Source of the DNA: an alpha proteobacterium L41A
Lineage (GTDB): Bacteria; Pseudomonadota; Alphaproteobacteria; Caulobacterales; Caulobacteraceae
DNA: 64,000 bases
Reading direction: 5' to 3'
Assembly: GCA_000335735.1 (NCBI GenBank)
Contig: AMYY01000002.1
Span: 124,001-188,000, forward strand
Made by a program: the position numbers and the translations under genes. Below the pieces are notes generated by a model. It made no database searches. It worked only from the letters and a program-made list of their open reading frames with translations, and was not told the DNA's origin. This document shows positions 28,546-48,673 of this stretch, piece after piece (the first letter of the stretch is position 1; each line of letters starts with the position of its first letter).

Positions 28546-29616
28546 ATGAGCATCACCCCCGAAAACCCCATTGGTCTGGACGGCTTCGAGTTCGTGGAAT
28601 TCACCAGTCCCGATCCCGAGGCGATGGCCGCCCTGATCGAACGCCTCGGCTTTGTGGCCACACATCGTCATCCGACGAAAGCGGTGGTTCGCTACAAGCA
28701 GGGCCGCACCAATCTGCTCGTCAACAGCGAAGCGACCGGACAGGCGGCTGCGTTCCGGGCGCTGCACGGACCTTCAGCCAGCGGCATGGCCTTCCGGGTG
28801 GCCGACGCTCGCCAGGCCTATGATCTGGCCCTGTCGCGCGGTGCGCGCGCCGCCGACGCCGCCGCAGGCGCGCTCGGCGCTGACGCCATGGTGCTGGAAG
28901 GCATCGGCGGCTCCTACCTCTATCTCGTCGACCGCCACGGTGCGGCCGGGTCGCTGTACGACGACTGGACCGAGATCGACGGGTGGCGCGAGGCCGAGGC
29001 CGCAAACAGCGTCGGCCTCGACATTCTGGATCACCTCACCCACAACGTCCGTCGGGGCCAGATGCGGACCTGGTCCGGCTTCTACAACCAAATCTTCGGC
29101 TTCGAGGAGCAGAAGTATTTCAACATCAAGGGCCAGGCCACCAGCCTGATCTCCCAGGCGATGATCGCGCCGGACAAGGCGATTCGCATCCCCCTCAACG
29201 AGAGCGAGGACGACCAGTCCCAGATCGAGGAGTTCATCCGCGAGTATAACGGCGAGGGCATCCAGCACCTGGCCATGACCACGGACAACATCTACGAGAC
29301 CGTGGAGGCCCTGCGCGCCCGTGGCGTGCGGCTTCAGGACACCATCGAGACCTACTACGAGCTGGTCGACAAGCGGGTGCCAGGCCATGGCGAGGATCTG
29401 GAGCGGCTCAAGGCGAACCGCATTCTGATCGACGGGAACATCGGCGAGGAAGGCATCCTGCTGCAGATCTTCACCGAGAACCTGTTCGGACCGATCTTCT
29501 TCGAGATCATCCAGCGCAAGGGCAACGAGGGCTTTGGCAACGGCAATTTCCAGGCCCTGTTCGAATCGATCGAACTCGACCAGATTCGGCGCGGCGTCAT
29601 CAAGGTCGAGGGCTGA
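28546..29616 (+). CDS. hppD: 4-hydroxyphenylpyruvate dioxygenase
   Basis: 356 residues, converting 4-hydroxyphenylpyruvate to homogentisate with Fe(II) and O2 in tyrosine breakdown. The three iron ligands can be placed: His163 in ILDHLTH, His241 in IQHLAM and Glu320 in FFEIIQRKG. The open C-terminal block GFGNGNFQALFESIE is also typical. No other tyrosine-pathway gene is adjacent, so it stands alone with its divergent Lrp regulator. The end is marked by a hairpin at 29625. Confidence 0.95.
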   Translation: MSITPENPIGLDGFEFVEFTSPDPEAMAALIERLGFVATHRHPTKAVVRYKQGRTNLLVNSEATGQAAAFRALHGPSASGMAFRVADARQAYDLALSRGARAADAAAGALGADAMVLEGIGGSYLYLVDRHGAAGSLYDDWTEIDGWREAEAANSVGLDILDHLTHNVRRGQMRTWSGFYNQIFGFEEQKYFNIKGQATSLISQAMIAPDKAIRIPLNESEDDQSQIEEFIREYNGEGIQHLAMTTDNIYETVEALRARGVRLQDTIETYYELVDKRVPGHGEDLERLKANRILIDGNIGEEGILLQIFTENLFGPIFFEIIQRKGNEGFGNGNFQALFESIELDQIRRGVIKVEG

Positions 29617-29657: not shown

Positions 29658-30110
29658 TCAGACGCGCGACTTCAGATGACCGACCCCGCCGGCCGGCCGG
29701 ACGCCGGCCGGCGGCGCTTCCGAGGTTTCTTCCAGATCCGCCAGGATCGGACAGTCGGGGCGATCGTCACCCGCGCAGCAGGCGATCAGCGTTTGCAGGG
29801 TGTCCGACATCTGCCTGAGGCTGGCGATCCGCGTATTCAGCTCCGCGATGTGCGCGCTGGCGATGCGTTTGACGTCGGCGCTCTGACGCGACCGGTCGTT
29901 CCACAGGCTCAGCAGGTCCTGAATCTCAGCGACGGAAAACCCGAGGTCGCGGGCGCGTCGGATGAACCGGAACCGGTGTACGTCCGCGTCCGAGTAGTCG
30001 CGATAGCCGGACTCCTTCCGGTCCGCCGCCGGGATGAGGCCGGTCTGCTCATAGTAGCGGATCATCTTGGCGGACACGCCGGAGGCCCTGGCGGCCTGAC
30101 CGATGTTCAT
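29658..30110 (-). CDS. cueR: CueR-type MerR-family copper-responsive activator
   Basis: 150 residues. The N-terminal winged helix (MNIGQAARASGVSAKMIRYY) and coupling helix are followed by the metal-binding loop with Cys112 and Cys120 (CAGDDRPDC), the exact spacing and numbering of CueR proteins that sense Cu(I), Ag(I) or Au(I). It lies 15 bp downstream of copA on the same strand, so copA and cueR form one operon. Its expected targets are the long inverted-repeat promoters at 32678-32745 and 45592-45662. Confidence 0.92.
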   Translation of the reverse strand: MNIGQAARASGVSAKMIRYYEQTGLIPAADRKESGYRDYSDADVHRFRFIRRARDLGFSVAEIQDLLSLWNDRSRQSADVKRIASAHIAELNTRIASLRQMSDTLQTLIACCAGDDRPDCPILADLEETSEAPPAGVRPAGGVGHLKSRV

Positions 30111-30125: not shown

Positions 30126-32630
30126 TCACCCCAGCCGCGCCGCGACGTCGACATCGACGCCCTGCGGCGGCCTGAAGCCGCGCAGACGCAACGCATTGCC
30201 AAGCACGAAGACGCTGGACATGGCCATGGCCCCCGCCGCGAACACCGGCGACAACAGCACACCCCACACCGGATACAACGCTCCGGCGGCGACGGGAATG
30301 AGGGCCGCATTATAGGCGAAGGCCCAGAACAGGTTCTGCCGGATGTTTCCGATGGTGGCGCGGGACAGGGCGATGGCCGTCGCCACCCCTTTCAGACTGC
30401 CGGACATCAGCACCACGTCCGCCGCCTCGATGGCGATGTCCGTGCCGGTGCCGACCGCCAGGCCCACATCCGATTCCGCCAGCGCCGGGGCGTCATTGAT
30501 GCCGTCGCCGACGAAGGCGACCCGGCCATGCTCGTCCTTGAGACGGCGCACCGCCTCGACCTTGCCGTCGGGCAACACCTCGGCCACCACTTCGTCAATG
30601 CCCAACTGGCGGGCGATGGCGGCCGCGGTGCGGCGGTTGTCGCCGGTGATCATCGCCACCTTCAGGCCCAGTCCGTGCAGGGCGGCGATGGCCGCCGGGG
30701 TGCTGGCCTTGATCGGGTCGGCCACGGCGATGATCGCCGCCAGACGTCCGCCGATGGCGGCGTAGAGCGGGCTCTTGCCCTCATCGCCCATGCGGCCCGC
30801 CGTATCGGCGAAGACGCCCACGTCCAGTCCCAGTTCGCCCATGTAGCGGTCCGAACCGATCTGCACGGCCTCGCCGTCCACCGTCGCGGTCACGCCACGT
30901 CCGGTGACGGACTCAAAGGCGGAAACCAGCGGCAGCGTCAGACCCTCGGCCTCGGCGGCCTCGACGATGGCGCGGGCGATGGGGTGTTCGGACTTGGCCT
31001 CGACCGCCGCCACCAGAGCCAGAACGCGGGCGCGCTCCATGCCGGGTTCGATCTGCAGGTCCGTCAGGGCGGGACGACCTTCCGTCAGGGTGCCGGTCTT
31101 GTCGACGGCCACGACCTTGGCGTCCTTGAGCAGTTGCAGCGCCTCGCCCTTGCGGAACAGCACGCCCAGTTCGGCGCCGCGACCGGTGCCGACCATGATC
31201 GAGGTCGGCGTCGCCAGACCCATGGCGCACGGGCAGGCGATGATCAGCACAGCCACCGCATTGACCAGGGCGAAGGTGAGCGCAGGCGACGGGCCGAACA
31301 CCAGCCAGACCAGGAAGGTCAGGGCCGCAACCGCCATGACCGCCGGCACGAACCACATCGTCACCTTGTCGACCAGCGCCTGGATCGGCAGCTTGGAGCC
31401 CTGGGCCTGTTCGACCATGCGAATGATCTGGGACAGCATGGTGCCGTCGCCGACCGCCGTGGCGCGGAACACAAGGGCGCCCTTCTGATTGACGGTGCCG
31501 CCCACCAGAGCCGCGCCCGAAGCCTTGGCCACAGGGACCGGCTCGCCGGTGATCATGGATTCATCGACATAGCTTTCGCCCTCGACGACCTCGCCATCGA
31601 CCGGAACGCGCTCGCCGGGACGGACCTCGACCAGATCGCCAGCCGCCACCTCGGCGATGGCGATTTCAACCATCACGCCGTCGCGGCGCACGCGCGCGGT
31701 CTTGGCCTGAAGCCCGACCAGACGCTTGATGGCCTCGGAGGTGCGGCCCTTGGCCTGGGCCTCAAGGAAGCGCCCCAGCAGGACCAGGGTGACGATGACG
31801 GCGGCCGCCTCGTAATAGACATTGACCGTTCCCGCCGGCAGCAGCGCCGGGGCGAAGGTCGCCACCAGGGAATAGGCATAGGCCGCCAGGGTCCCCACCG
31901 CCACCAGGGAGTTCATGTCCGGCGCTAGGCGGCGCAGAGCCGGCAGCCCCTTCTCGTAGAAGCGGATCCCCGGCACGGCCAGGACCACGGTGGTCAGCAC
32001 GAACTGCAAGTACCAGTTGGCCTGCATGCCGATGGTCTGCGCGATCAGCGCATGGACGCCGGGAATGAGGTGCGAGCCCATTTCCAGGAGAAAGACCGGC
32101 AGGGTCAGTGCGGCCGCGATGATCAGGTCGCGCTTTAGCGCGGCGCGTTCGATGTCCTTGCGCTCGTCGGCCTCGCCACCCGCCTCGGCCGGTGCGGCGG
32201 CATGCGCCGTGTAGCCGGCGCCGGCCACCGCTGCGATCAGGGCGCCGAGCTCGGCGAAGCCTTCGACGGTGGCGCGTTCGGTCGCCAGGTTCACACTGGC
32301 GCTCACGACACCGGGCGTCGCCCTGAGCGCCTTTTCGACCCGCCCGACGCAGGAGGCGCAGGTCATGCCTTCGATGGCCAACTCGATGCCAGCGGTCCGT
32401 ACGGCGTAACCGGCCGAGGCGACTGCCTGGACCATATCCGCCATCTCGATGGGACCGCCGGCCTGAATGTCGGCCCGCTCGGTGGCCAGGTTGACGCTGA
32501 CCGCGGCCACGCCGGGGACCTTGCTGATGGCGCGTTCAACGCGACCGACGCAGGAAGCGCAGGTCATGCCCTCAATAGGAAGACTCAAGGGAGAGCCGAC
32601 GCTTTTCGTCGGCGCATAGGGAGCATTCAT
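30126..32630 (-). CDS. copA: CopA-type Cu(I)-exporting P1B-1 ATPase
   Basis: 834 residues from ATG 32630. Two N-terminal HMA domains (about residues 16-80 and 84-145), each with GMTCASC. Eight TM helices with the CPC motif in [13 protein letters not shown], phosphorylation site [28 protein letters not shown] and [14 protein letters not shown]. These define a Cu(I)/Ag(I) exporter moving ions from cytoplasm to periplasm. A CueR-type promoter lies upstream. A frame to 32837 exists but would run through the operator. Confidence 0.95.
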
Positions 32631-32677
32631 CGCGCGATCCTCACACGGGTGACCAGAGTTGTCGGTGAAGATGAAGT

Positions 32678-32745
32678 TTCCCATCGTTGGAAGGTCAAGT
32701 CCGAAAAAAATCTCGACCCTGCCCTTGACCTTCCAACGATGGGAA
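32678..32745. promoter_or_regulatory. paired divergent CueR-type operators forming a 22-bp inverted repeat
   Basis: The left arm (32678-32699) and right arm (32724-32745) are perfect inverted copies of each other, 24 bp apart. Each arm, read outward, gives TTGACC as -35 element followed by the dyad CCTTCC-N7-GGAA; in the right arm it continues to GGAAGG. About 19 bp separate each TTGACC from a CATCTT or CATCTC -10-like element, the stretched spacing of MerR-family promoters. One promoter faces copA, the other the copZ-like gene. Confidence 0.85.
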
Positions 32746-32789
32746 GGGGCATCTCTTGGCTCACAAGCGGAAACGAAAGGAGTTTTCCC

Positions 32790-32984
32790 ATGCAGTTCCA
32801 CGTCGAAAACATGACTTGCGGCTCGTGCGTGAAGCACATCACCCAGGCCATCGCCACGGTGGATCCGGACGCCCGGCTCGAGGCCGACACGGTGTCGCGC
32901 ACCATCTCGGTGACCACCGTTGCCGACGCCGACGCCATCCAGAAGGCCCTTGCGGACGACGGTTACACCGCCCGGCCGATCTGA
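32790..32984 (+). CDS. copZ: CopZ-like HMA copper chaperone
   Basis: 64 residues, a single HMA domain with MTCGSC near the N-terminus (Cys10 and Cys13), which binds Cu(I) between two Cys. AAAGGAG precedes the start by 7 bases. It is divergent from copA under the paired CueR-type promoters and is followed 11 bp later by a DUF305 gene. It probably delivers Cu(I) to the HMA domains of CopA. Confidence 0.9.
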
Positions 32985-34006: not shown

Positions 34007-35197
34007 TCAGTGGACCGTCGTCGGCGGCCGCCGGGCCGCCTGCCAAAGCAGGGGCGCGAGGATCAGGGCGACAGGCGGGAACAGGAGCCAGTTGATCGCT
34101 TGCCAGCCGGCGGTGTTGAGTATCGCGCCGGCCATGAAGGAGACGACGGCGGTGGCGCCGAAGACGAAGAAGTCATTTGCGCCTTGGGCCTTGCTCCGCT
34201 CCTCGACCGAATGACAGTCCGTCACCATGGCCGTGGCGCCGATGAAGCTGAAATTCCACCCAAGACCCATGATCATCAGCGACAGCCAGAAGTTTTCCAC
34301 CGCCACGCCCGACAGGGCAACCACCGCCGCAACCGCGATGAGAACCATGCCGACCGCCGCGACGCGTTCCTTTCCGAACCGCGCCATCAGGCGGCCGGTG
34401 AAGAAGCTTGGCGCGAACATGGCGAGCAGATGCCACTGGATGGCCAGAGCCGCGCTGTTCACCGAATGGCCGATGTTAACCATCGCCACCGGAGCGGCGG
34501 TCATGACGAAGGCCATCAGGCCGTAGGAGACCACGCCCGTCGCTACCGCCAGCATGAAACGCGGCGCTCGGAGAATCTGTCCCAGCGAGCGGCCGCCGCT
34601 GGGACCGGCCTGACCGATCGCCGGCGGCGAGCGCAGCAGCAGCAACACCGGGATGACCAGAAGAGCCAGGGCCGCCTGGCTGATGAAGCTGCCGACATAC
34701 GGCGTGCCAGGCACAGTGTCCCGGGTCCAGATGACCAGTTGGGGGCCGACAACAGCGGCGACCAGGCCGCCGACCATTACCCAGGAGATCGCCTGGGCCT
34801 TCAGATCCCCGTCCGCCCCATCGGCGGCTGCGAATCGATAGCTCTGGACGTAGGCGCCGTAGAGGCCGGCCGTGAAGGCTCCGAGACAAAAGATCCAGAA
34901 GGACGCGGTGAAGATTCCGAAGGCTGCGACGAGACCTGAAGCCACGCCAAACAGGGCGCCCAGAAGATAGCCGTTGCGGCGGCCGTGACGTCGCATGACG
35001 AAGGCTGCGGGCGGCGCGCCGAGGGCGAGCCCCACGCCGAACAGACTGACGGGAAAAGTAACCCAGGCAGGATCCGCAGCCAGTTGCTGGCCCACCAGGC
35101 CGCCCAGGGACATCACGATCGGGGGACTGGCGCCGCCCAACGCCTGGGCTGCGGTCAGCACGGCGATGTTGCGGCGAGCGATCGGCTGATCAGTCAT
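34007..35197 (-). CDS. MFS transporter
   Basis: 396 residues with twelve hydrophobic helices. MFS features include AAFVMRRHGRRNGYLLGALFG between TM2 and TM3 and a matching GRLMARFGKERV between the halves. The WNFSFIGATAMVTDCHSVEERSKAQ block is conserved among a group of uncharacterised exporters. It is divergent from csoR with a CsoR-type operator between them, so copper or another metal may control it. Substrate unknown. Confidence 0.8.
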   Translation of the reverse strand: MTDQPIARRNIAVLTAAQALGGASPPIVMSLGGLVGQQLAADPAWVTFPVSLFGVGLALGAPPAAFVMRRHGRRNGYLLGALFGVASGLVAAFGIFTASFWIFCLGAFTAGLYGAYVQSYRFAAADGADGDLKAQAISWVMVGGLVAAVVGPQLVIWTRDTVPGTPYVGSFISQAALALLVIPVLLLLRSPPAIGQAGPSGGRSLGQILRAPRFMLAVATGVVSYGLMAFVMTAAPVAMVNIGHSVNSAALAIQWHLLAMFAPSFFTGRLMARFGKERVAAVGMVLIAVAAVVALSGVAVENFWLSLMIMGLGWNFSFIGATAMVTDCHSVEERSKAQGANDFFVFGATAVVSFMAGAILNTAGWQAINWLLFPPVALILAPLLWQAARRPPTTVH

Positions 35198-35571: not shown

Positions 35572-36330
35572 GTGACGTCCCCAGCCAAACGCGCTCAAAT
35601 CTACCGAATGGTCATGCCCGGCCACACCTGCCCCTATGGCCTGAAGGCGCTGCACCTGCTGAAGAGCCGGGGCTATACGGTGGAGGACCATCACCTCGCC
35701 TCGCGCGAGCAGACCGACGCCTTCAAGGCCGAACATGGCGTCCAGACAACGCCCCAGACCTTTATCGACGGCAAGCGCATCGGCGGTTTCGATGACCTGC
35801 GCCGCTTCTTCGGCATGCGCGTGCGCGACAAGGATGAAGTCACCTATACGCCGGTCATCGCCCTGTTCGCCATGGCCGCGCTGATGGCCATGGCCGCCGG
35901 CTGGGCGGCCTATGGCGAACTGATCTCGGTGCGGGTCGTGGAATGGTTCATCGCCATCGCCATGTGCCTTCTGGCGCTGCAGAAGCTGAAGGACGTTGAC
36001 GCCTTCGCCACCATGTTCCTGAACTACGACCTTCTGGCCAAGCGGTGGGTGCCGTACGGAACCGTCTACCCCTATGCCGAAGGCCTGGCGGGTCTTCTGA
36101 TGCTGGCCGGCGCCCTGATGTGGGTCTCGGTCCCGGTCGCCCTGTTCATCGGCGGCGTGGGCGCGGCCTCGGTGTTCAAGGCCGTCTATATCGACAAGCG
36201 CGAACTGAAGTGCGCCTGCGTCGGCGGCGACAGCAAGGTGCCGCTGGGCTTCGTCTCGTTGTCAGAGAATCTGATGATGGTCGGCATGGCGATCTGGATG
36301 CTGGTCAAGCCGATGGGCATGGGCCACTAG
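35572..36330 (+). CDS. glutaredoxin-MauE domain fusion membrane protein
   Basis: 252 residues from GTG 35572, with GGAGG 6 bases upstream. Residues about 8-82 are a glutaredoxin with active site HTCPYG (single active-site Cys) and the TPQTFIDGKRIGG glutathione-binding part. Residues about 93-250 form four helices of the MauE/DoxX type (YPYAEGLAGLLMLAG) with a Cys-x-Cys (KCACVGG) before the last helix. MauE proteins help form disulfides in the periplasm. The gene follows csoR, so a copper-linked thiol role is likely. Confidence 0.85.
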   Translation: MTSPAKRAQIYRMVMPGHTCPYGLKALHLLKSRGYTVEDHHLASREQTDAFKAEHGVQTTPQTFIDGKRIGGFDDLRRFFGMRVRDKDEVTYTPVIALFAMAALMAMAAGWAAYGELISVRVVEWFIAIAMCLLALQKLKDVDAFATMFLNYDLLAKRWVPYGTVYPYAEGLAGLLMLAGALMWVSVPVALFIGGVGAASVFKAVYIDKRELKCACVGGDSKVPLGFVSLSENLMMVGMAIWMLVKPMGMGH

Positions 36331-38047: not shown

Positions 38048-38896
38048 TCATCCGCCCAGATCGACCGGCGCGAAGCTCTTCACCAGATCATCTACCGCCT
38101 TCACCTGCTCGAGCATGACGGCCAGTCTGTCCAGCGGCAGGGCGCTGGGCCCGTCGCACAGCGCCTGATCCGGGTCCGGGTGGGCTTCCAGAAACAGCCC
38201 GGCCAGGCCCAGGGCGAGGCCTGAACGGGCGAGCTCCAGCACCTGTCCGCGCCGCCCTCCCGATCGGGCGGCGCCGGGATCGCGCGTCTGCAGGGCATGG
38301 GTGGCGTCAAACACGATCGGCGCGCCGTCGCTCACGGTCTTCATCACACCGAAACCGAGCATATCCACGACGAGATTGTCATAGCCGAAGGAACTGCCTC
38401 GCTCGCACAGGATGACATCCGGGGCCCCGAAGTCTTTGAACTTCTCGACCACATGGGCGATCTGGTGCGGGCTCATGAACTGGGGTTTCTTCACGTTGAT
38501 GGCCCGGCCGGTGCTCGCCAGCGCCGCGATCAGATCCGTCTGGCGCGCGAGGAAGGCCGGGAGCTGGAGAATGTCGCAGACCTCGGCGACGGCAGCCGCC
38601 TGCTCCGGCCAATGAACGTCCGTCAGCACCGGGACGTCGAACGCGCGGCGAACCTCCTCGAGGATGCGCAGGCCCGCGTCCAGGCCGGGTCCGCGATAGG
38701 ACCGGTTCGACGACCGGTTGGCCTTGTCGAACGATCCCTTGAAGACAAACGGCATGCCCAGCCGCCCGGTCTCCGTCTTCATCGCCTCAGCGACGGTCAT
38801 CGCCAGGTCCCGGCTCTCCAGCACGTTCACGCCGCCGATCAGCACCATCGGCCGGTTGTTGGAGAAGGAGGCCTGTCCCACCTGAACCGTCTTCAT
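38048..38896 (-). CDS. kdsA: 3-deoxy-8-phosphooctulonate synthase (KDO-8-P synthase)
   Basis: 282 residues from ATG 38896 (GGAG 6 bases upstream); the frame reaches 38908. It condenses arabinose-5-phosphate and phosphoenolpyruvate to KDO-8-phosphate for lipopolysaccharide. Motifs: [18 protein letters not shown] and [11 protein letters not shown]. The residue that separates metal-independent from metal-dependent enzymes is Asn (Asn24, in GGVNVLES), so it is the metal-independent class. A core-pathway gene among resistance genes may be a second copy; that needs the rest of the genome. Confidence 0.92.
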
Positions 38897-39121
38897 TCTC
38901 GTCTCCATGGCATCGCCGTCGTCCCGCAGGATCGGCTGTTGAGATTGGATGCAGTCGCCAACTGCGAAGGGCGCGCCCGCTACCGGACCGTCGACCGCCG
39001 TCCGGGCTCGACGCGGGCTTGCGGCGCCGGGCCTCGAGACGCAAGATCACCCGCCAACATGGCGACGGGAAGGGCCCGCCGGATCCGGCCGGCCCAGACG
39101 CCTGTCAGGAGACGTGCATCC

Positions 39122-39907
39122 GTGCATTCGCGAGACATCGTCACGGCGGTTCTGGATCCGCTGGAGGCCCTCGGCGGGGGACTGAAGCTGGCGCAGTTCA
39201 TCGCCCTGCTCGGCCTGTTCGACATCAACCCGGACGCTGTGCGGGCGACCCTGTCGCGTATGCGGCGCGAGGGGCTCCTGCATACGGAAAAGATCGGACG
39301 CGAGGTCGAGTATACGTTGACCGACGAGATGCGGCGTCGGCTGAAGGCCGAACGGGATCGCAGCCTTACAGCGCCTTCAGCGGCCTGGTCGGGCGACTGG
39401 ACCACGGTACTCTACCAGATTCCCGAAAGCGACCGATCCCGGCGCGAAAAGCTCAAGCGGCGCCTCATCGATCGCGGGTTCGGCCAACTTAACCCGACGA
39501 CCTGGATCAGCCCCCGTGACGAGCGCGACACTCTCCGCTGCGACCTGTGCTGCGATGGCGATCTCTCGGTGGTCATCCTCACCAGCCGGACGGGAAGCCT
39601 CGAGCGTGACCGCGACCTCGTGACGAGGGCCTGGGATCTCGATGAAATCGCCGGGCACTATCGGGGCTTCACGACGGAGTGGAGCCCCGTTCTCACCGGG
39701 CGTCTCGCGTCCCCGAGCGAAGCCTTTCGCCTGCGCACCCTGCTCATGAGCGACTGGTTCCACCTGCCCCGCCATGACCCTCGCCTTCCCCTGCCCCTGC
39801 AGCCGCGGGGCTGGGCGGGTCAGGACGCCTTCGCCCTGTTTCAGCGTCTCGCCGGCGTCCTGGAAAAGCCCGCGCTATCCTATCTGGCTGGCCTTCGCGC
39901 ATCCTAA
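39122..39907 (+). CDS. PaaX-family transcriptional regulator
   Basis: 261 residues from GTG 39122 with GGAG 10 bases upstream. The N-terminal winged helix (LGLFDINPDAVRATLSRMRREGLL) and the PaaX C-terminal part (WTTVLYQIPESDRSRREKLKRRL, then GFGQLNPTTWISP) are clear. PaaX represses phenylacetate catabolism in other bacteria. No paa genes are present; the nearest catabolic candidate is the convergent aromatic-acid-type MFS gene, or the downstream TPP-enzyme group. Confidence 0.82.
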   Translation: MHSRDIVTAVLDPLEALGGGLKLAQFIALLGLFDINPDAVRATLSRMRREGLLHTEKIGREVEYTLTDEMRRRLKAERDRSLTAPSAAWSGDWTTVLYQIPESDRSRREKLKRRLIDRGFGQLNPTTWISPRDERDTLRCDLCCDGDLSVVILTSRTGSLERDRDLVTRAWDLDEIAGHYRGFTTEWSPVLTGRLASPSEAFRLRTLLMSDWFHLPRHDPRLPLPLQPRGWAGQDAFALFQRLAGVLEKPALSYLAGLRAS

Positions 39908-39959: not shown

Positions 39960-41300
39960 TCAGGCGCGCAACCGGGGCACGCTCATGACCATGATCACCC
40001 CGAGGACGGCCGGAACGACCCAGACCGCGAAGTTGACGAAGTCCGAGAGGCCCGCGCCGATGAGCGCGCCGCCCAGGACGATGGCGACCGCAGCCCCCGT
40101 GCGGCCGACCGCCAGGATCGTGCCCAGGGCCGTGCCGCGCATGGCGTCGGGGTAGGAGGTCGCGATGAACCCGTTCAACAGGATTTGCGCGCCGATCGAA
40201 CCGAAGCCGACGAGGGCCACCAGCGGATACATCACGGCCAGGGCGTGTCCGTCGCCCGACAGGAAGCCAAGCGCCATGACGAACAGCGCCGCGCCGGCCA
40301 TGGCGAAGGCAGCCGAGACCACGCGCCTGGCCCCAAACCGGTCCGCCAGGGGCGAAGCGACCAGCGAACCGATCACGGCGCCGGCGTTCACAGTGAGCAG
40401 GAAGCTCAGCGACGACGTCAGGGAATAGCCCGCCAGGGTCAGCAGTTTGGGCATCCAGGTGTTGAGGCCATAGATCAGTATCTGTCCGGCGATCGCGGCC
40501 AGCAGGAAGACAGCGGTGACGACAGCCCAGCGGCCCGAGAAGATCGCCAGCAGCGGATTGCGCGGTTTGACCCCATTCCTTGTCGGGGACGCCGCGCCCG
40601 GCACCGCCTGCGGCTCCAGTCCGTAGGCCTCCACGATGCGGTCGGCGTCCTCGACCCGGCCGCGGGCGCGCAGATAGGCCGGCGATTCGGGCAGATAGAG
40701 CATCAGCAACGGCACGATGGTGACCAGGGGCAGGCCGCCGATCGACAGCATGCCGCGGAAGCCGAAGGCGTCCACGAAGCCGATGGCCAGCAGCGCCGCC
40801 AGAATCCCGCCGAACGAGTAGCCGGAGAACATCAGGGCGTTGTTGAAATTCTTGCGACCCGCCCGCGAGAACTCGACTGTGGTCGCCACGGCGGTCGGGA
40901 TGACGCCGCCCAGGCCGATGCCCGACAGGAAGCGGAACAGGCCGAACAGTTCGGGGGTCGGCGCGGCGGCTGTCGCGAGCATCAGGATGGAGAAAAAGGC
41001 CACGGCGCCGATCAGCACCCTGCGCCGCCCGACCAGATCCGTGAGATACCCCACCATCAGCGAACCCAGCGCCATGCCGAGCAGCGCCAGGCTATTCATC
41101 GCACCGGTTTCGGCGGTCGTCAGTCCCCATTTCTCGTAGGCGAGGATGGAGTCGACGATCGTCCCGTAGACCACCAGGTCATAACCATCGAACACCAGGG
41201 CCAGGAAGGCCAGGGCGATGACCAGCCCCACGGATTTCTTCTTGATCGGCGGGCCAGACCTCCCTGTCGGGGCGCCGGGACTCAGGGAAGACAGGCTCAT
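39960..41300 (-). CDS. MFS transporter, aromatic acid:H+ symporter type
   Basis: 446 residues, twelve helices. The motif VFDGYDLVVYGTIV in TM1 and the block GVIPTAVATTVEFSRAGRKN between TM4 and TM5 are characteristic of the AAHS group (PcaK, BenK, GenK-like) that imports benzoate-type acids. It is 131 bp downstream of the CDF gene in the same direction, with a perfect short palindrome (41315-41329) before its start. The substrate cannot be fixed; a PaaX-like regulator gene lies convergently next to it. Confidence 0.85.
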   Translation of the reverse strand: MSLSSLSPGAPTGRSGPPIKKKSVGLVIALAFLALVFDGYDLVVYGTIVDSILAYEKWGLTTAETGAMNSLALLGMALGSLMVGYLTDLVGRRRVLIGAVAFFSILMLATAAAPTPELFGLFRFLSGIGLGGVIPTAVATTVEFSRAGRKNFNNALMFSGYSFGGILAALLAIGFVDAFGFRGMLSIGGLPLVTIVPLLMLYLPESPAYLRARGRVEDADRIVEAYGLEPQAVPGAASPTRNGVKPRNPLLAIFSGRWAVVTAVFLLAAIAGQILIYGLNTWMPKLLTLAGYSLTSSLSFLLTVNAGAVIGSLVASPLADRFGARRVVSAAFAMAGAALFVMALGFLSGDGHALAVMYPLVALVGFGSIGAQILLNGFIATSYPDAMRGTALGTILAVGRTGAAVAIVLGGALIGAGLSDFVNFAVWVVPAVLGVIMVMSVPRLRA

Positions 41301-41431: not shown

Positions 41432-42349
41432 TCAGATCGGTCCGGCGCGACGCAGAGCCCCCGGCGCATCGACCTGGACAGTGACGTGGTCGATGGCATG
41501 GCGCGTTTTCAGCCATGCCGCCACCAGGGCCGGCAGGACCAGCGGGTCCGTTCCTGGCGCAGGGGTGACATGGACGGTGGCCACGACGGTTTCGTCGGTC
41601 AGGGTCCAGGCATGGAAATGGCCGGCCTCCTCGATTTCCGGCAGGGTCGCCAGATCCGCCTCGGCCTGCCGCGCGTCGAGCCCGCGCGGCACGGCCTGGA
41701 GCAGGACGCGCAGCGACTCCTTCACCAGCGACCAGGCCGAGCGCACGACCAGCAACGCGACCAGCACCGACAGAAGGGGGTCCAGCAGGGTCCAGCCGGT
41801 CAGCATGATGCCGATCGCCGCCGCGATCGCCCCGACAGATCCAAGCAGGTCGCCGACCACGTGCAGGAAGGCTCCGCGCAGGTTGCTGTCACCCTTGCGA
41901 CCGCGCGACAGGATCCAGGCGCCGATCAGATTTACGGCCAGACCAATGGTCGCCACGATCAGCATGGGTCCGGCCAGAACCTCGACCGGCTGGTTGATCC
42001 GGTTGATCGCCTCCCAGATGATCCAGGCCACAAGGAGCAGCAGGGACGCGCCGTTGGCCAGCGCCGCCAGCACGCGCACTCGGTGATAACCATAGGTCCG
42101 AACGCCGTCGACGGGGCGGCGCGCCACCCGGTAGGCGATCAGGGCCAGCAGAAGGGCGGCGGCGTCCGACACCATGTGACCGGAATCCGCGATCAGGGCG
42201 AGAGAGCCGGACATCCACCCGCCGATGGCCTGGACCGCGGCATAGCCGGCCGTGAAGATCAGCACGAAGCGGATACGCCGCTCGTTATCCCCCGTCACCA
42301 CCTCGCCGTGGTCGTGCCCGTCGCTCTCATCATGCTGCGTCGACGCCAT
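41432..42349 (-). CDS. CDF-family cation exporter, second full-length copy
   Basis: 305 residues from ATG 42349; the open frame to 42409 lacks a ribosome site. A short His-containing N-terminus (HDESDGHDHGE) precedes six helices with the zinc-type motifs HMVSD (TM2) and HVVGD (TM5) and a cytoplasmic domain (HFHAWTLTDETVVATVHV). No His-rich C-terminus, unlike 36920-37948. It lies 99 bp after the aldehyde dehydrogenase gene in the same direction. Confidence 0.9.
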   Translation of the reverse strand: MASTQHDESDGHDHGEVVTGDNERRIRFVLIFTAGYAAVQAIGGWMSGSLALIADSGHMVSDAAALLLALIAYRVARRPVDGVRTYGYHRVRVLAALANGASLLLLVAWIIWEAINRINQPVEVLAGPMLIVATIGLAVNLIGAWILSRGRKGDSNLRGAFLHVVGDLLGSVGAIAAAIGIMLTGWTLLDPLLSVLVALLVVRSAWSLVKESLRVLLQAVPRGLDARQAEADLATLPEIEEAGHFHAWTLTDETVVATVHVTPAPGTDPLVLPALVAAWLKTRHAIDHVTVQVDAPGALRRAGPI

Positions 42350-42448
42350 TCTCGTGTCCGATCTATCTGGATGCGGGCGCGCCCGCATCGACAATCCTTC
42401 CGGCCTCATCCGTCAAGGCCGCCCTCGCCCGCAACGCCCGTCAGGGTC

Positions 42449-43831
42449 TCAGCCCCGGCGGAGCACGACCATCTTCTCCTGCGTCATGTCCCGCAGGGTG
42501 TAGCCGATCCCGCCCGTCCCGTAGCCGGAGGTCCGCCTCCCCGCGAACGGCATCCAGTCGGTCCGGAATGTCGTCGGATCGTTGACCATGACCGCCGAGG
42601 CGTCCAGCCGATCCGCCGCCCGCAGCGCCACATCGATGTCTCCCGCGAAGACACTGGCCTGGAAGGCCGTCGGCAGGGCGTTGGCGCGGGCGATCGCATC
42701 ATCGAGGTTCTGGTAGCGGTAAAGGGCCAGCACAGGTCCGAACACCTCCTCGCGCGAGATCCGGGCCTCGGCGGGCGGGTCGAGCAGCACCGTGGGCTCC
42801 AGGATCGTCGACGACAGACGACCTCCGCCGATGGCCAGACGGGCGCCGCCTGCGACCGCCTCCCCGATCCAGGCCTCTACCCTGTCAGCCTCACGCCCCC
42901 GGATCAGCGGGCCGACCTCAGTGTCCTCCCGGGTCGGATCGCCCGTGCGCAAAGCCGCCACACGAGCGACCAGCCGCTCCGTCACGACATCGAAGACCGC
43001 ATCATGCACATAGAGCCGCTGGGTCGACACGCAGACCTGTCCGGCATGATAGAAGGCGCCTTTCACGACAGGCTCGATCAGGGCGTCCAGATCCGCGCTG
43101 CGATCGACGATGGCCGGCGCCGCGCCACCGTGTTCCAGCGCGGAACGCACGCCGGGCGCCAAGCGTGAATGCAGATACCATCCCACGCGGGCCGAGCCGA
43201 TGAAGCTGAGAAAGGCGATGCGCGGGTCGGTGGCGAGCCTTTCGGCAAGCGCGGTGTCCGCTGTGATCAGGGTCTGGCACCAGGCCTCCGGCAGGCCCGC
43301 CTCCCGGACGAGGGCGACAAGGTCCAGGCAGGACAGGGGCGTCGCCTCGGCCGGTTTCACGATGACCGGACAGCCTGCGGCGATGGCGGGAACGATCTGG
43401 TGAACGATGAGGTTCAGGGGATGGTTGAAGGCCGAGATCGCGGCCACGACCCCGATCGGCTCCCGGGTCGTGAAGGCCCAGCGGCCGTCCGATGCGGGCG
43501 ACAGGCCCATGGGGATCTCGCGACCGGAGAAGGTCCTGAGCTCGTCGGCGGCGTTGCGGACCCCGTCGATGGCGCGGACGGCCTCGATCCGGGCATCGGC
43601 CAGCGGCTTTCCGCCCTCGCGCGCGATCTGCATCGCGAAATGCTCCCGCCGCCCCTCCATCAGCTCGGCCAGTCGCCGAAGGACGGCCACCCGCTCATGC
43701 GGTTTCAGCCACCGGTCCCGGTTCGCGAAGAGATCACGCGCGGTCCGCAACTTTCGCTCCAGCGCCGCCGCGTCGTCGGTCTCGATCCCGGCGATGGGGG
43801 TCTGGTCGTAGGGTTGTACGATTTGCAGCAT
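42449..43831 (-). CDS. NAD(P)-dependent aldehyde dehydrogenase
   Basis: 460 residues from ATG 43831 (GTG 43846 is possible). Family blocks: AISAFNHPLNLIVHQIVPA for cofactor binding, LEHGGAAPAIV with the general-base Glu, and AGQVCVSTQRLYVH with the catalytic Cys, then EEVFGPVLALYRY. It oxidises an aldehyde to an acid; the closest groups act on small metabolic aldehydes. It starts within a few bases of the acetolactate synthase stop, so the two are co-transcribed. Confidence 0.9.
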   Translation of the reverse strand: MLQIVQPYDQTPIAGIETDDAAALERKLRTARDLFANRDRWLKPHERVAVLRRLAELMEGRREHFAMQIAREGGKPLADARIEAVRAIDGVRNAADELRTFSGREIPMGLSPASDGRWAFTTREPIGVVAAISAFNHPLNLIVHQIVPAIAAGCPVIVKPAEATPLSCLDLVALVREAGLPEAWCQTLITADTALAERLATDPRIAFLSFIGSARVGWYLHSRLAPGVRSALEHGGAAPAIVDRSADLDALIEPVVKGAFYHAGQVCVSTQRLYVHDAVFDVVTERLVARVAALRTGDPTREDTEVGPLIRGREADRVEAWIGEAVAGGARLAIGGGRLSSTILEPTVLLDPPAEARISREEVFGPVLALYRYQNLDDAIARANALPTAFQASVFAGDIDVALRAADRLDASAVMVNDPTTFRTDWMPFAGRRTSGYGTGGIGYTLRDMTQEKMVVLRRG

Positions 43832-43848
43832 GACGTTCTCTGGCACGC

Positions 43849-45501: not shown

Positions 45502-45591
45502 CGAAGCCTCCCTTCAGTGAGCGGATGGACCGATCCTGGCGCCGCGCCCAGGAACGCCTCGGCGGACCCGTCCTCCGCAGGCAGGATGGCC

Positions 45592-45662
45592 CTTCCAACA
45601 GTGGCAAGGTCAAGTCCGGAATTATCACTCCTGCGGCGGCTTGACCTTGCCACTGTTGGAAG
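45592..45662. promoter_or_regulatory. second paired divergent MerR/CueR-type operator, 23-bp inverted repeat
   Basis: Left arm 45592-45614 and right arm 45640-45662 are perfect inverted copies. Each reads outward as TTGACC-TTGCCACTGTTGGAAG. The minus-strand promoter has CATCCT about 19 bp past TTGACC; the plus-strand -10 is weaker. The layout copies that at 32678-32745 but with a slightly different dyad (CCTTGCC instead of CCTTCCA). It serves the acetolactate synthase operon and the HMA-poxB operon. Confidence 0.8.
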
Positions 45663-45700
45663 CCGGATCGTGGCTTTCCTGCAAACCCAAGGAGATCGCC

Positions 45701-45901: not shown

Positions 45902-46033
45902 GCCGGATCGGGCAGGATCTCCTCCGCAAGTGAAGAGATCCCGCCTTCCGGGAGGCGGCGTAAGCCCCCCGTCCGATCCGGTCGCGGGATCGTCACAAGG
46001 TTTGGCCAGGATCGCCAGCCAGAGGAGTTCGAA

Positions 46034-47920: not shown

Positions 47921-48673
47921 ATGAAACTGCTGCGTCTTTCCACCCAGCTTCACAAATGGATCGCGCTCCTGGTAGGACTGCAGATCCTGTTCTGGGTCGG
48001 CGGCGGTCTGGTCATGACCGCTATTCCGATCGAGACCGTCCGCGGCGAGCACAGGGTCCGGACCGCACCGCCCCAGGCGCTGGACCTGACCCGTGTGCGG
48101 GCGCTTGATGAGATCGTCGCCGAGCGCAGGCTGACACCGACGCGAGCCGAACTGAAGTCGACCCCCCGCGGTCAGGCCTGGGTGCTGACGCTTCCCGCAG
48201 GCGCGCCGGTCATTCTGGAGGCTCGCACGGGCCGACCCTTCGCGCCGCTGGAGGCGGACGAAGCCCGCCGACTGGCGGCGACGCTCTATCGCGGCGAGGC
48301 CAGGGCCGGCGCCGCCAGACGTCTGGACGACGCCAGCGCCGAGACCGGCCGAGAAGGTCCGCTTTGGCGGGTCGAGTTCGAAGACCGCGAAAGAACCCGC
48401 TTCTATGTCTCGCCAGACACCGGAGAGGTTGTCACGCGCCGGTCCGGAATCTGGCGGCTCTACGACTTCTTCTGGCGCCTGCACATCCTGGATTTCAAGA
48501 CGGGCGAGAACTTCAATCACCCGCTGCTCATCGTCGCCAGCGGCCTCTCTCTCGTAGTGGTTCTGTCCGGCGTCGTCCTGCTCTGGATCCGGCTGGAACG
48601 GGATCTGATACAGTGGCGCGCCCGCCGCGGCGCGAAGCCGCGTCGGGCGCGCGGCCGGCTCAGCGAACCGTAA
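47921..48673 (+). CDS. PepSY-domain membrane protein
   Basis: 250 residues. A first helix LHKWIALLVGLQILFWVGGG (about residues 11-30), a periplasmic part with two PepSY-like units (residues 60-170, including FYVSPDTGEVVTRR), a conserved FFWRLHILDF block and a second helix (about residues 201-223), then a basic tail. Similar proteins accompany iron or copper uptake and reduction systems. It overlaps the convergent copC gene by 14 bp. The 162 bp upstream hold no other gene that I see. Confidence 0.8.
   Translation: MKLLRLSTQLHKWIALLVGLQILFWVGGGLVMTAIPIETVRGEHRVRTAPPQALDLTRVRALDEIVAERRLTPTRAELKSTPRGQAWVLTLPAGAPVILEARTGRPFAPLEADEARRLAATLYRGEARAGAARRLDDASAETGREGPLWRVEFEDRERTRFYVSPDTGEVVTRRSGIWRLYDFFWRLHILDFKTGENFNHPLLIVASGLSLVVVLSGVVLLWIRLERDLIQWRARRGAKPRRARGRLSEP

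Follow-up and report, generated by a model that had tools for sequence, protein, structure and literature searches.

Organization of the locus

The window analysed here is the whole stretch of 64,000 nucleotides, and all coordinates given without a prefix refer to it. Between the starts of two divergent genes, one encoding an acetolactate-synthase-family (ALS-family) enzyme and the other a small HMA-domain protein, lies a perfect inverted repeat whose 23-bp arms (45592-45614 and 45640-45662, separated by 25 nt) are exact reverse complements of each other (CTTGACCTTGCCACTGTTGGAAG). Reading outwards, the rightward promoter is TTGACC-19-GATCGT and the leftward promoter is TTGACC-19-CATCCT, and both 19-nt spacers hold the imperfect dyad CCTTGCCACTGTTGGAAG. 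The -10 hexamers at this pox/als locus are weak, and their positions were assigned by spacing. A preliminary description of this DNA had reported a perfect repeat with outward TTGACC and a long-spacer dyad at this place, and both observations are correct. The features of the locus and of the neighboring copper genes are collected in Table 1.

Table 1. Features of the pox/als locus and of the copA/copZ reference locus. Model scores are given with the family cut-off where available.
Feature	Coordinates	Strand	Details
Leftward CueR-type promoter/operator, predicted	45583-45614	-	-35 TTGACC 45613-45608; 19-bp spacer with dyad; -10 CATCCT 45588-45583; 28.9 bits
Rightward CueR-type promoter/operator, predicted	45640-45671	+	-35 TTGACC 45641-45646; 19-bp spacer with dyad; -10 GATCGT 45666-45671; 28.9 bits
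CueR, predicted regulator	29658-30110	-	TIGR02044, 179.6 bits against a cut-off of 147.4
copA, copper P1B-type ATPase	30126-32630	-	TIGR01511, 594 bits against a cut-off of 397
Reference double CueR-type promoter, copA (-)/copZ (+) intergenic	32666-32757		TTGACC-19-CATCTC and TTGACC-19-CATCTT
copZ-like HMA chaperone	32790-32984	+	NF047957, 37.7 bits, below the cut-off of 85; CXXC
MFS transporter, possibly in leftward run (131-nt gap)	39960-41300	-	Present in G074; unmatched in G001 and G088
CDF cation efflux transporter, next in leftward run	41432-42409	-	TIGR01297, 264.3 bits against 82.35
Aldehyde dehydrogenase (ALDH), 2 nt after ALS-family gene	42449-43846	-	All listed matches are aldehyde/semialdehyde dehydrogenase models; no listed cut-off reached
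ALS-family ThDP enzyme, 550 aa	43849-45501	-	NF006187, 839.4 bits against a cut-off of 509
HMA-domain (CXXC) copper-chaperone-like protein, 66 aa	45701-45901	+	PF00403, 36.3 bits against 24.8; aligned with island orthologues and CopZ
Imperfect hairpin between HMA and poxB, no T-run	45903-45965	+	z -2.1; 7 of 200 shuffles fold equally well
PoxB, ubiquinone-dependent pyruvate dehydrogenase, 574 aa	46034-47758	+	NF006591, 1029.7 bits against a cut-off of 792
PepSY_TM membrane protein 3' of PoxB	47921-48673	+	PF03929, 50.2 bits against 28.8; same order in three other island genomes

A promoter scan found no ordinary sigma-70 promoter with a 16-18 nt spacer at the repeat, as expected for a 19-bp promoter of the MerR type. 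Three features of CueR-controlled promoters are found here: the -35 and -10 hexamers are 19 bp apart in both directions, each spacer holds a CueR-type dyad (28.9 bits, with eight of the ten letters linked to CueR), and a CueR protein that exceeds its family cut-off is encoded in the same gene cluster. We interpret the repeat as two back-to-back promoters of the MerR type that are very likely controlled by CueR.

A second double site, about 13 kb distant in the copA/copZ intergenic region, is built in the same way from different operator letters. The spacing between the inner -35 edges is 27 nt at pox/als and 26 nt at copA/copZ, and the earlier statement that the layout copies that of copA/copZ is accurate. 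Such sites are rare. In the window, TTGACCTTNCCNNNNNTGGAAG with up to three mismatches is matched five times against 0.24 expected (one of the five being a cop dyad read in reverse). Across the 3.1-Mb genome the dyad CCTTNCCANNNTTGGNAGG is confined to two places, the pox/als locus and copA/copZ, and these are also the only ones that match the divergent pair AAGGTCAAG-N18-40-CTTGACCTT, for which the reversed control gave no match. With a looser pattern and one mismatch allowed, six single sites were found in the genome, four of them being those of the pox/als and cop loci (the reversed control gave one). One of the two extra sites, on contig 13, was compared with seven other genomes: its letters are unchanged in five (G002, G074, G088, G113, and G114) and differ once in G001 and G120. 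This sharing, together with a reading of the frame, suggests that the site lies in coding DNA.

The regulator

Alignment of the window CueR with E. coli CueR (1q05) places the metal-binding loop CCAGDDRPDCPI against ACPGDDSADCPI. The metal-loop cysteines C112 and C120 are present, and so is S77. Five genes in the genome match the MerR_1 model, and the window CueR is one of them. Three of the other four proteins score between 57.8 and 111.1 against the CueR cut-off of 147.4 and none passes; the fourth (L155), read by eye, shows no cysteine metal loop. Among the four of five MerR_1 proteins scored by family model, the protein encoded at 29658-30110, in the same cluster as pox/als, is the sole CueR found to pass the cut-off. 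A 4-hydroxyphenylpyruvate dioxygenase gene (28546-29616) adjoins cueR and keeps this place in three other island genomes.

Residues of the recognition helix have been tied to particular operator letters, and in the account given in PMC5045206 the A-K-M triad is tied to CueR-type letters. As read from the alignment, the window CueR carries the A-K-M triad in its DNA helix. By our own mapping of positions, the CueR-linked letters match at nine of ten positions at cop and at eight of ten at pox/als, where the operators deviate at two inner positions. With these two deviations and the poor pox -10 hexamer (GATCGT), the promoters might be induced less strongly or only by more copper. The pox/als sites also score below the best cop sites and may for this reason respond at higher copper.

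The rightward operon

The HMA protein contains the HMA domain and a CXXC motif and scores 32.9 bits with the CopZ model NF047957, below its cut-off of 85. The hairpin between this gene and poxB possibly causes uneven expression within the operon; a scan for terminators between the two genes found none. The identity of PoxB is solid: the protein exceeds its NCBIfam cut-off (Table 1) and aligns with E. coli PoxB (3ey9) over residues 2-572. The alignment takes in the C-terminal membrane-binding segment and extends to residue 570 of 572 of 3ey9. The PepSY_TM gene is possibly co-transcribed with poxB.

Plasmids were also searched. No copper genes were found at three of the 20 listed plasmid matches to PoxB (H44, H48, and H60; the top match, H41, lies outside this sample). 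A megablast of the 23-kb copper region gave 338 plasmid records, none of which covers 80% of the query. Fifteen listed plasmid matches cover 8-12% of the copper region with 74-77% identity, at the copA/cueR end, and six of the 338 records, outside those listed, have matches above 80% identity.

The leftward operon

The best solved relatives of the ALS-family enzyme are named acetolactate synthases, and NF006187 is the only model that it passes among the 25 listed. It falls below the cut-offs of both AlsS models (NF006378, 424.4 against 510; TIGR02418, 394.2 against 551.1). Acetolactate decarboxylase (PF03306) was found in none of the four island genomes, while a control search was positive in three of 14, and acetoin is therefore an unsupported product. 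The proposal that pyruvate is redirected to acetoin-type products does not hold, since the decarboxylase was not found in these genomes and the enzyme, which often has an ALDH neighbor, fails both AlsS models; an acetoin pathway was rejected on these grounds.

The ALS-ALDH pair is, judging from gene neighborhoods, a widespread module. An ALDH gene with the same orientation, no more than 600 nt away, was found at 34 of the 80 best named ALS-family loci (one sequence is counted twice) and at 19 of 44 class-wide loci from 385 genomes. The 80 loci are the best of 589 confirmed relatives; they are dominated by Bradyrhizobium and other Rhizobiales, and L063 and L128 are identical in sequence. Among these 80, metal genes were recognized beside the ALS-family gene only at L063/L128, L066/L067, and L087, and CueR-like sites above 20 bits occur only in the Pannonibacter-type cluster, whose two loci are identical. 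A convincing CueR site before the ALS-family gene is absent from all 44 class-wide loci, several of which are truncated at contig ends; the only high score, 23.4 bits at L252, is 4.8 kb away with opposite-strand genes between. The position weight matrix (PWM) used to scan these 80 and 44 loci had the pox-locus sites in its training set. Since few ALS-ALDH loci have recognized copper genes as neighbors, the pair seems to have been recruited by CueR locally.

The leftward run of G001 and G088 consists of the ALS-family, ALDH, and CDF genes followed 96 nt on by KdsA, without the MFS gene. In the window a KdsA (KDO-8-phosphate synthase) paralogue at 38048-38908 belongs to the copper island, and the genome has two more KdsA-like genes with 45% identity. 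A long open reading frame (38297-39907, plus strand), the second half of which looks PaaX-like, stands beside the MFS transporter, which seems to be of the aromatic-acid type; both were judged by eye. Elsewhere, on a plasmid of Sphingobium yanoikuyae (L145:6464-15058), the ALS-ALDH pair adjoins genes for nitric-oxide reductase, truncated hemoglobin, and an Rrf2 regulator. Rrf2/hemoglobin partners, which would suggest nitric-oxide detoxification, were found at only one of the best 80 of 589 ALS-family loci (L087).

Conservation of the double site

Sixteen PoxB genes were found in 14 of the 131 genomes of the genus (E <= 1e-250). Four of these genes, 92-100% identical, lie in a copper island, and the other 12 (67-77%) lie elsewhere. 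The island is found in four of the 131 genomes (our own, G001, G074, and G088), where PoxB shares its gene order with HMA, ALS-family, ALDH, CDF, CopB, and multicopper oxidase genes. Both sites are present in all four copies of the island.

The PWM used for scoring drew on 19 sites at copA, copZ, cueR, multicopper-oxidase, or HMA genes and left out the pox-locus sites; the training sites score 25.8-37.1 bits on the PWM itself. The two pox/als sites of the window score 28.9 bits each, those of G001 and G088 score 24.6 bits each, and those of G074 score 27.4 and 23.7 bits, so that the G001 and G088 sites and the right G074 site fall below the lowest training site. In G001 and G088 each site has one substitution, which gives TTGACA in the right (pox) -35 hexamer and alters one dyad letter on the left. 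In each of the four island genomes the second-best intergenic score was reached by none of 2000 mononucleotide shuffles, which preserve base composition only. The 12 non-island PoxB genes of the genus and eight class-wide PoxB genes, the latter scored in both orientations, reach at most 5.6 bits in the 600 bp upstream. A search for the same repeat before poxB and alsS in related genomes had been proposed: the double site is kept in the four island genomes, these 20 non-island PoxB genes have no such site in the 600 bp upstream, and the 44 class-wide ALS-family loci offer no convincing case in front of the gene.

G074 is the most diverged copy, and its flanks have changed. Over its two 22-nt sites 37 of 44 letters are retained, compared to 88 of 126 aligned letters outside them (gapped columns excluded). 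The two arms of G074 match each other at just 16 of 22 positions while each keeps the operator pattern, which indicates that the unit under selection is each operator and not the hairpin.

Two sets of genomes were searched for the exact divergent pattern, 121 from the genus and 385 from the class, the gap being slightly wider in the class-wide search; three genomes (G000, G004, and G032) belong to both sets, giving 503 in total. Matches were found in four of the 121 and six of the 385 genomes, at 10 distinct places, and the reversed control matched by chance in two and one genomes, respectively. Nine of the 10 double sites (own cop, G074, G116, G111, G521, G402, G430, G248, and G186) adjoin a copA-like P-type ATPase gene together with an HMA chaperone or cueR-like gene. 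The tenth is the ALS/HMA-PoxB locus. The nine ATPases are 42-100% identical to the window CopA over the available stretches; TIGR01511 is passed by our own CopA and by the G248 ATPase (573.7 against 397), and the other seven were judged by similarity.

Possible parallels were seen in three other places, and they are suggestive only. In G248 (L196:4881-7477) the leftward arm of the copA double site faces cueR, a cytochrome-c-like gene (weak matches, the best at 38.4 bits), and an ALS-family gene (NF006187, 755.6 bits), all co-directional, a layout that may represent a second case in which CueR recruited an ALS-family enzyme. Pannonibacter carbonis has a CueR-like site (L063:2664) about 7.3 kb before the ALS-family gene. 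The co-directional run between them was read as RND adaptor, RND pump, MerR-type, monooxygenase, and KdsA genes leading to the ALS-family and ALDH genes, and the MerR-type and KdsA products were also scanned; KdsA (L063:9064-9918) is directly before the ALS-family gene. In G455 the ALDH and ALS-family genes are followed by a copA-like gene. Taken with the window, the arrangements in G248 and Pannonibacter suggest that ALS-family genes may have been recruited to CueR-type sites more than once.

Two further observations are recorded here. An extra single CueR-like site, TTGACCTTCCTAGCGTTGGAAT, is found in G001 (G001:C6:68542-68563) and G088 (L040:595-616), past the 3' end of a relative of the MFS gene at 34007-35197 and in the same reading direction. 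The island also encodes a glutaredoxin-MauE fusion (35572-36330), with an apparent paralogue, by reading, on another contig (L158), on the opposite strand beside a MerR-type regulator.

Proposed function and alternative explanations

We propose that two divergent CueR-controlled promoters drive both operons, with a probability of roughly 0.85 as judged from sequence. By analogy with the CueR family, apo-CueR would occupy the dyad of each 19-bp spacer and hold the promoters off. Binding of Cu(I), Ag(I), or Au(I) to CueR would then distort the DNA and allow RNA polymerase to use the over-long spacer. The rightward transcript would encode the HMA chaperone, PoxB, and possibly the PepSY membrane protein, and the leftward transcript would encode the ALS-family enzyme, the ALDH, and the CDF transporter.

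PoxB needs ThDP and FAD, has neither lipoate nor an Fe-S cluster, and passes electrons straight to ubiquinone. It could therefore sustain pyruvate oxidation once Cu(I) has put Fe-S enzymes and the lipoyl-dependent pyruvate dehydrogenase complex (putative here) out of action, and in this proposal the ALS/ALDH pair would provide another outlet for pyruvate. Because the identity of PoxB is solid, it is reasonable to link Cu(I) to the predicted formation of acetate. The likeliest purpose of the arrangement is a copper-insulated, lipoate-free detour from pyruvate to acetate around a copper-poisoned pyruvate dehydrogenase complex, to which we give slightly less than an even chance. The wider proposal is held a little more tentatively: a copper sensor would switch central carbon metabolism directly, Cu(I)-CueR turning on a lipoate- and Fe-S-free pyruvate-to-acetate route (PoxB and the ALS-family/ALDH branch) that bypasses the pyruvate dehydrogenase complex under copper attack on its lipoyl groups and so counters cuproptosis-like damage. 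PMC12790557 claims that copper makes lipoylated proteins aggregate in bacteria; its authors state that validation by western blot was not possible.

Two alternatives to CueR control were considered, both very improbable. The repeat folds very stably as RNA (-48.5 kcal/mol, z -10.3), and it might be mainly an RNA hairpin or the trace of a mobile element whose likeness to a CueR operator is incidental. A scan of the repeat found no terminator-like site, however, and the divergence of the G074 arms with retention of each operator pattern argues against this explanation, as does the presence of the same layout with other letters at cop and the placement of nine of the 10 double sites in 503 genomes at copA-like genes. 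A hairpin or terminator and a mobile-element end were both rejected because the operators are conserved and the hairpin is not, and because double sites elsewhere are linked to copA; we regard this as the least probable of all the readings. Nearly as improbable is the use of the sites by a MerR-type regulator other than CueR. The genome does encode two more metal-type MerR proteins, on another contig, but neither passes the CueR cut-off, and their DNA-contacting triads read V-P-T and V-E-T in place of A-K-M, with V and E being linked to other operator letters in the account of PMC5045206. This candidate was rejected for these reasons.

The remaining alternatives accept CueR control and differ in what the enzymes are for. 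Their role could be the management of redox balance and oxygen, with ubiquinol from PoxB feeding oxidases and so lowering oxygen and copper-driven oxidants. PoxB is by family a quinone-reducing flavoenzyme with a PepSY membrane protein encoded next to it, and oxygen scavenging is given in PMC3849628 as a possible role of a lactate oxidase controlled by the copper sensor CopY. This explanation leaves the divergent ALS-family/ALDH operon unaccounted for, and no terminal oxidase gene was seen in the two gene runs; we consider it unlikely, though it is the stronger of the two alternatives of this kind. More doubtful still is the idea that the ALS-family enzyme helps to make branched-chain amino acids once the Fe-S enzyme dihydroxyacid dehydratase has been damaged by Cu(I), or stands in for a different copper-sensitive step, with PoxB as a separate passenger. 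It is established that copper damages Fe-S dehydratases, which counts for this idea, and where no acetolactate decarboxylase was found, as in the island genomes, acetolactate would enter the valine/leucine path or decay. More acetolactate upstream would not repair a blocked dehydratase, however, and the ALDH partner, so frequent at the best named and class-wide loci, is not a gene of the branched-chain pathway.

Accounts of bacterial copper defense usually center on export, sequestration, and oxidation. If CueR controls pyruvate enzymes, as predicted here, metabolic rerouting governed directly by the copper sensor would join this list. It would also become possible to test, in a tractable bacterium, whether copper truly targets the lipoyl-dependent pyruvate dehydrogenase complex in bacteria and whether cells carry an inducible bypass.

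Comparison with known copper-responsive systems

E. coli PoxB is a homologue of the window enzyme over nearly its whole length, including the C-terminal stretch, and to our knowledge it is not a copper-regulon gene. The preliminary description had called the arrangement an unusual metal-controlled metabolic branch. This stands insofar as the literature searched (titles and abstract openings) contained no report of CueR control of PoxB or acetolactate synthase, and it is tempered by partial precedents, the lactate oxidase and spxB cases discussed in PMC3849628 and the glutaminase ybaS, a possible CueR-regulon member according to PMC1526738.

The double site resembles the CueR/HmrR copper regulon of proteobacteria, for which PMC1526738 describes promoters with a 19-bp spacer, a dyad of the ACCTTCCC-N5-TGGAAGGT kind, and linkage of the regulator gene to a copper ATPase gene. 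Members of that regulon named in PMC1526738 are transporters, chaperones, a multicopper oxidase, candidate cytochromes, and candidate glutathione transferases, and the glutaminase ybaS and amino acid transporter ybaT are given as possible members in E. coli. The main text of that paper uses neither "pyruvate" nor "dehydrogenase".

The copper-induced lactate oxidase of Lactococcus lactis, as presented in PMC3849628, is similar to the arrangement proposed here in that a flavoenzyme from lactate/pyruvate metabolism is under the control of a copper sensor. It differs in the sensor family, in its Gram-positive host, and in consuming oxygen, whereas PoxB is a quinone-linked pyruvate enzyme. The pneumococcal spxB gene, directly downstream of the cop operon, likewise places a pyruvate oxidase gene next to a copper operon; a role of the copper sensor is called unknown in PMC3849628, and unlike PoxB the SpxB enzyme makes H2O2 and acetyl phosphate.
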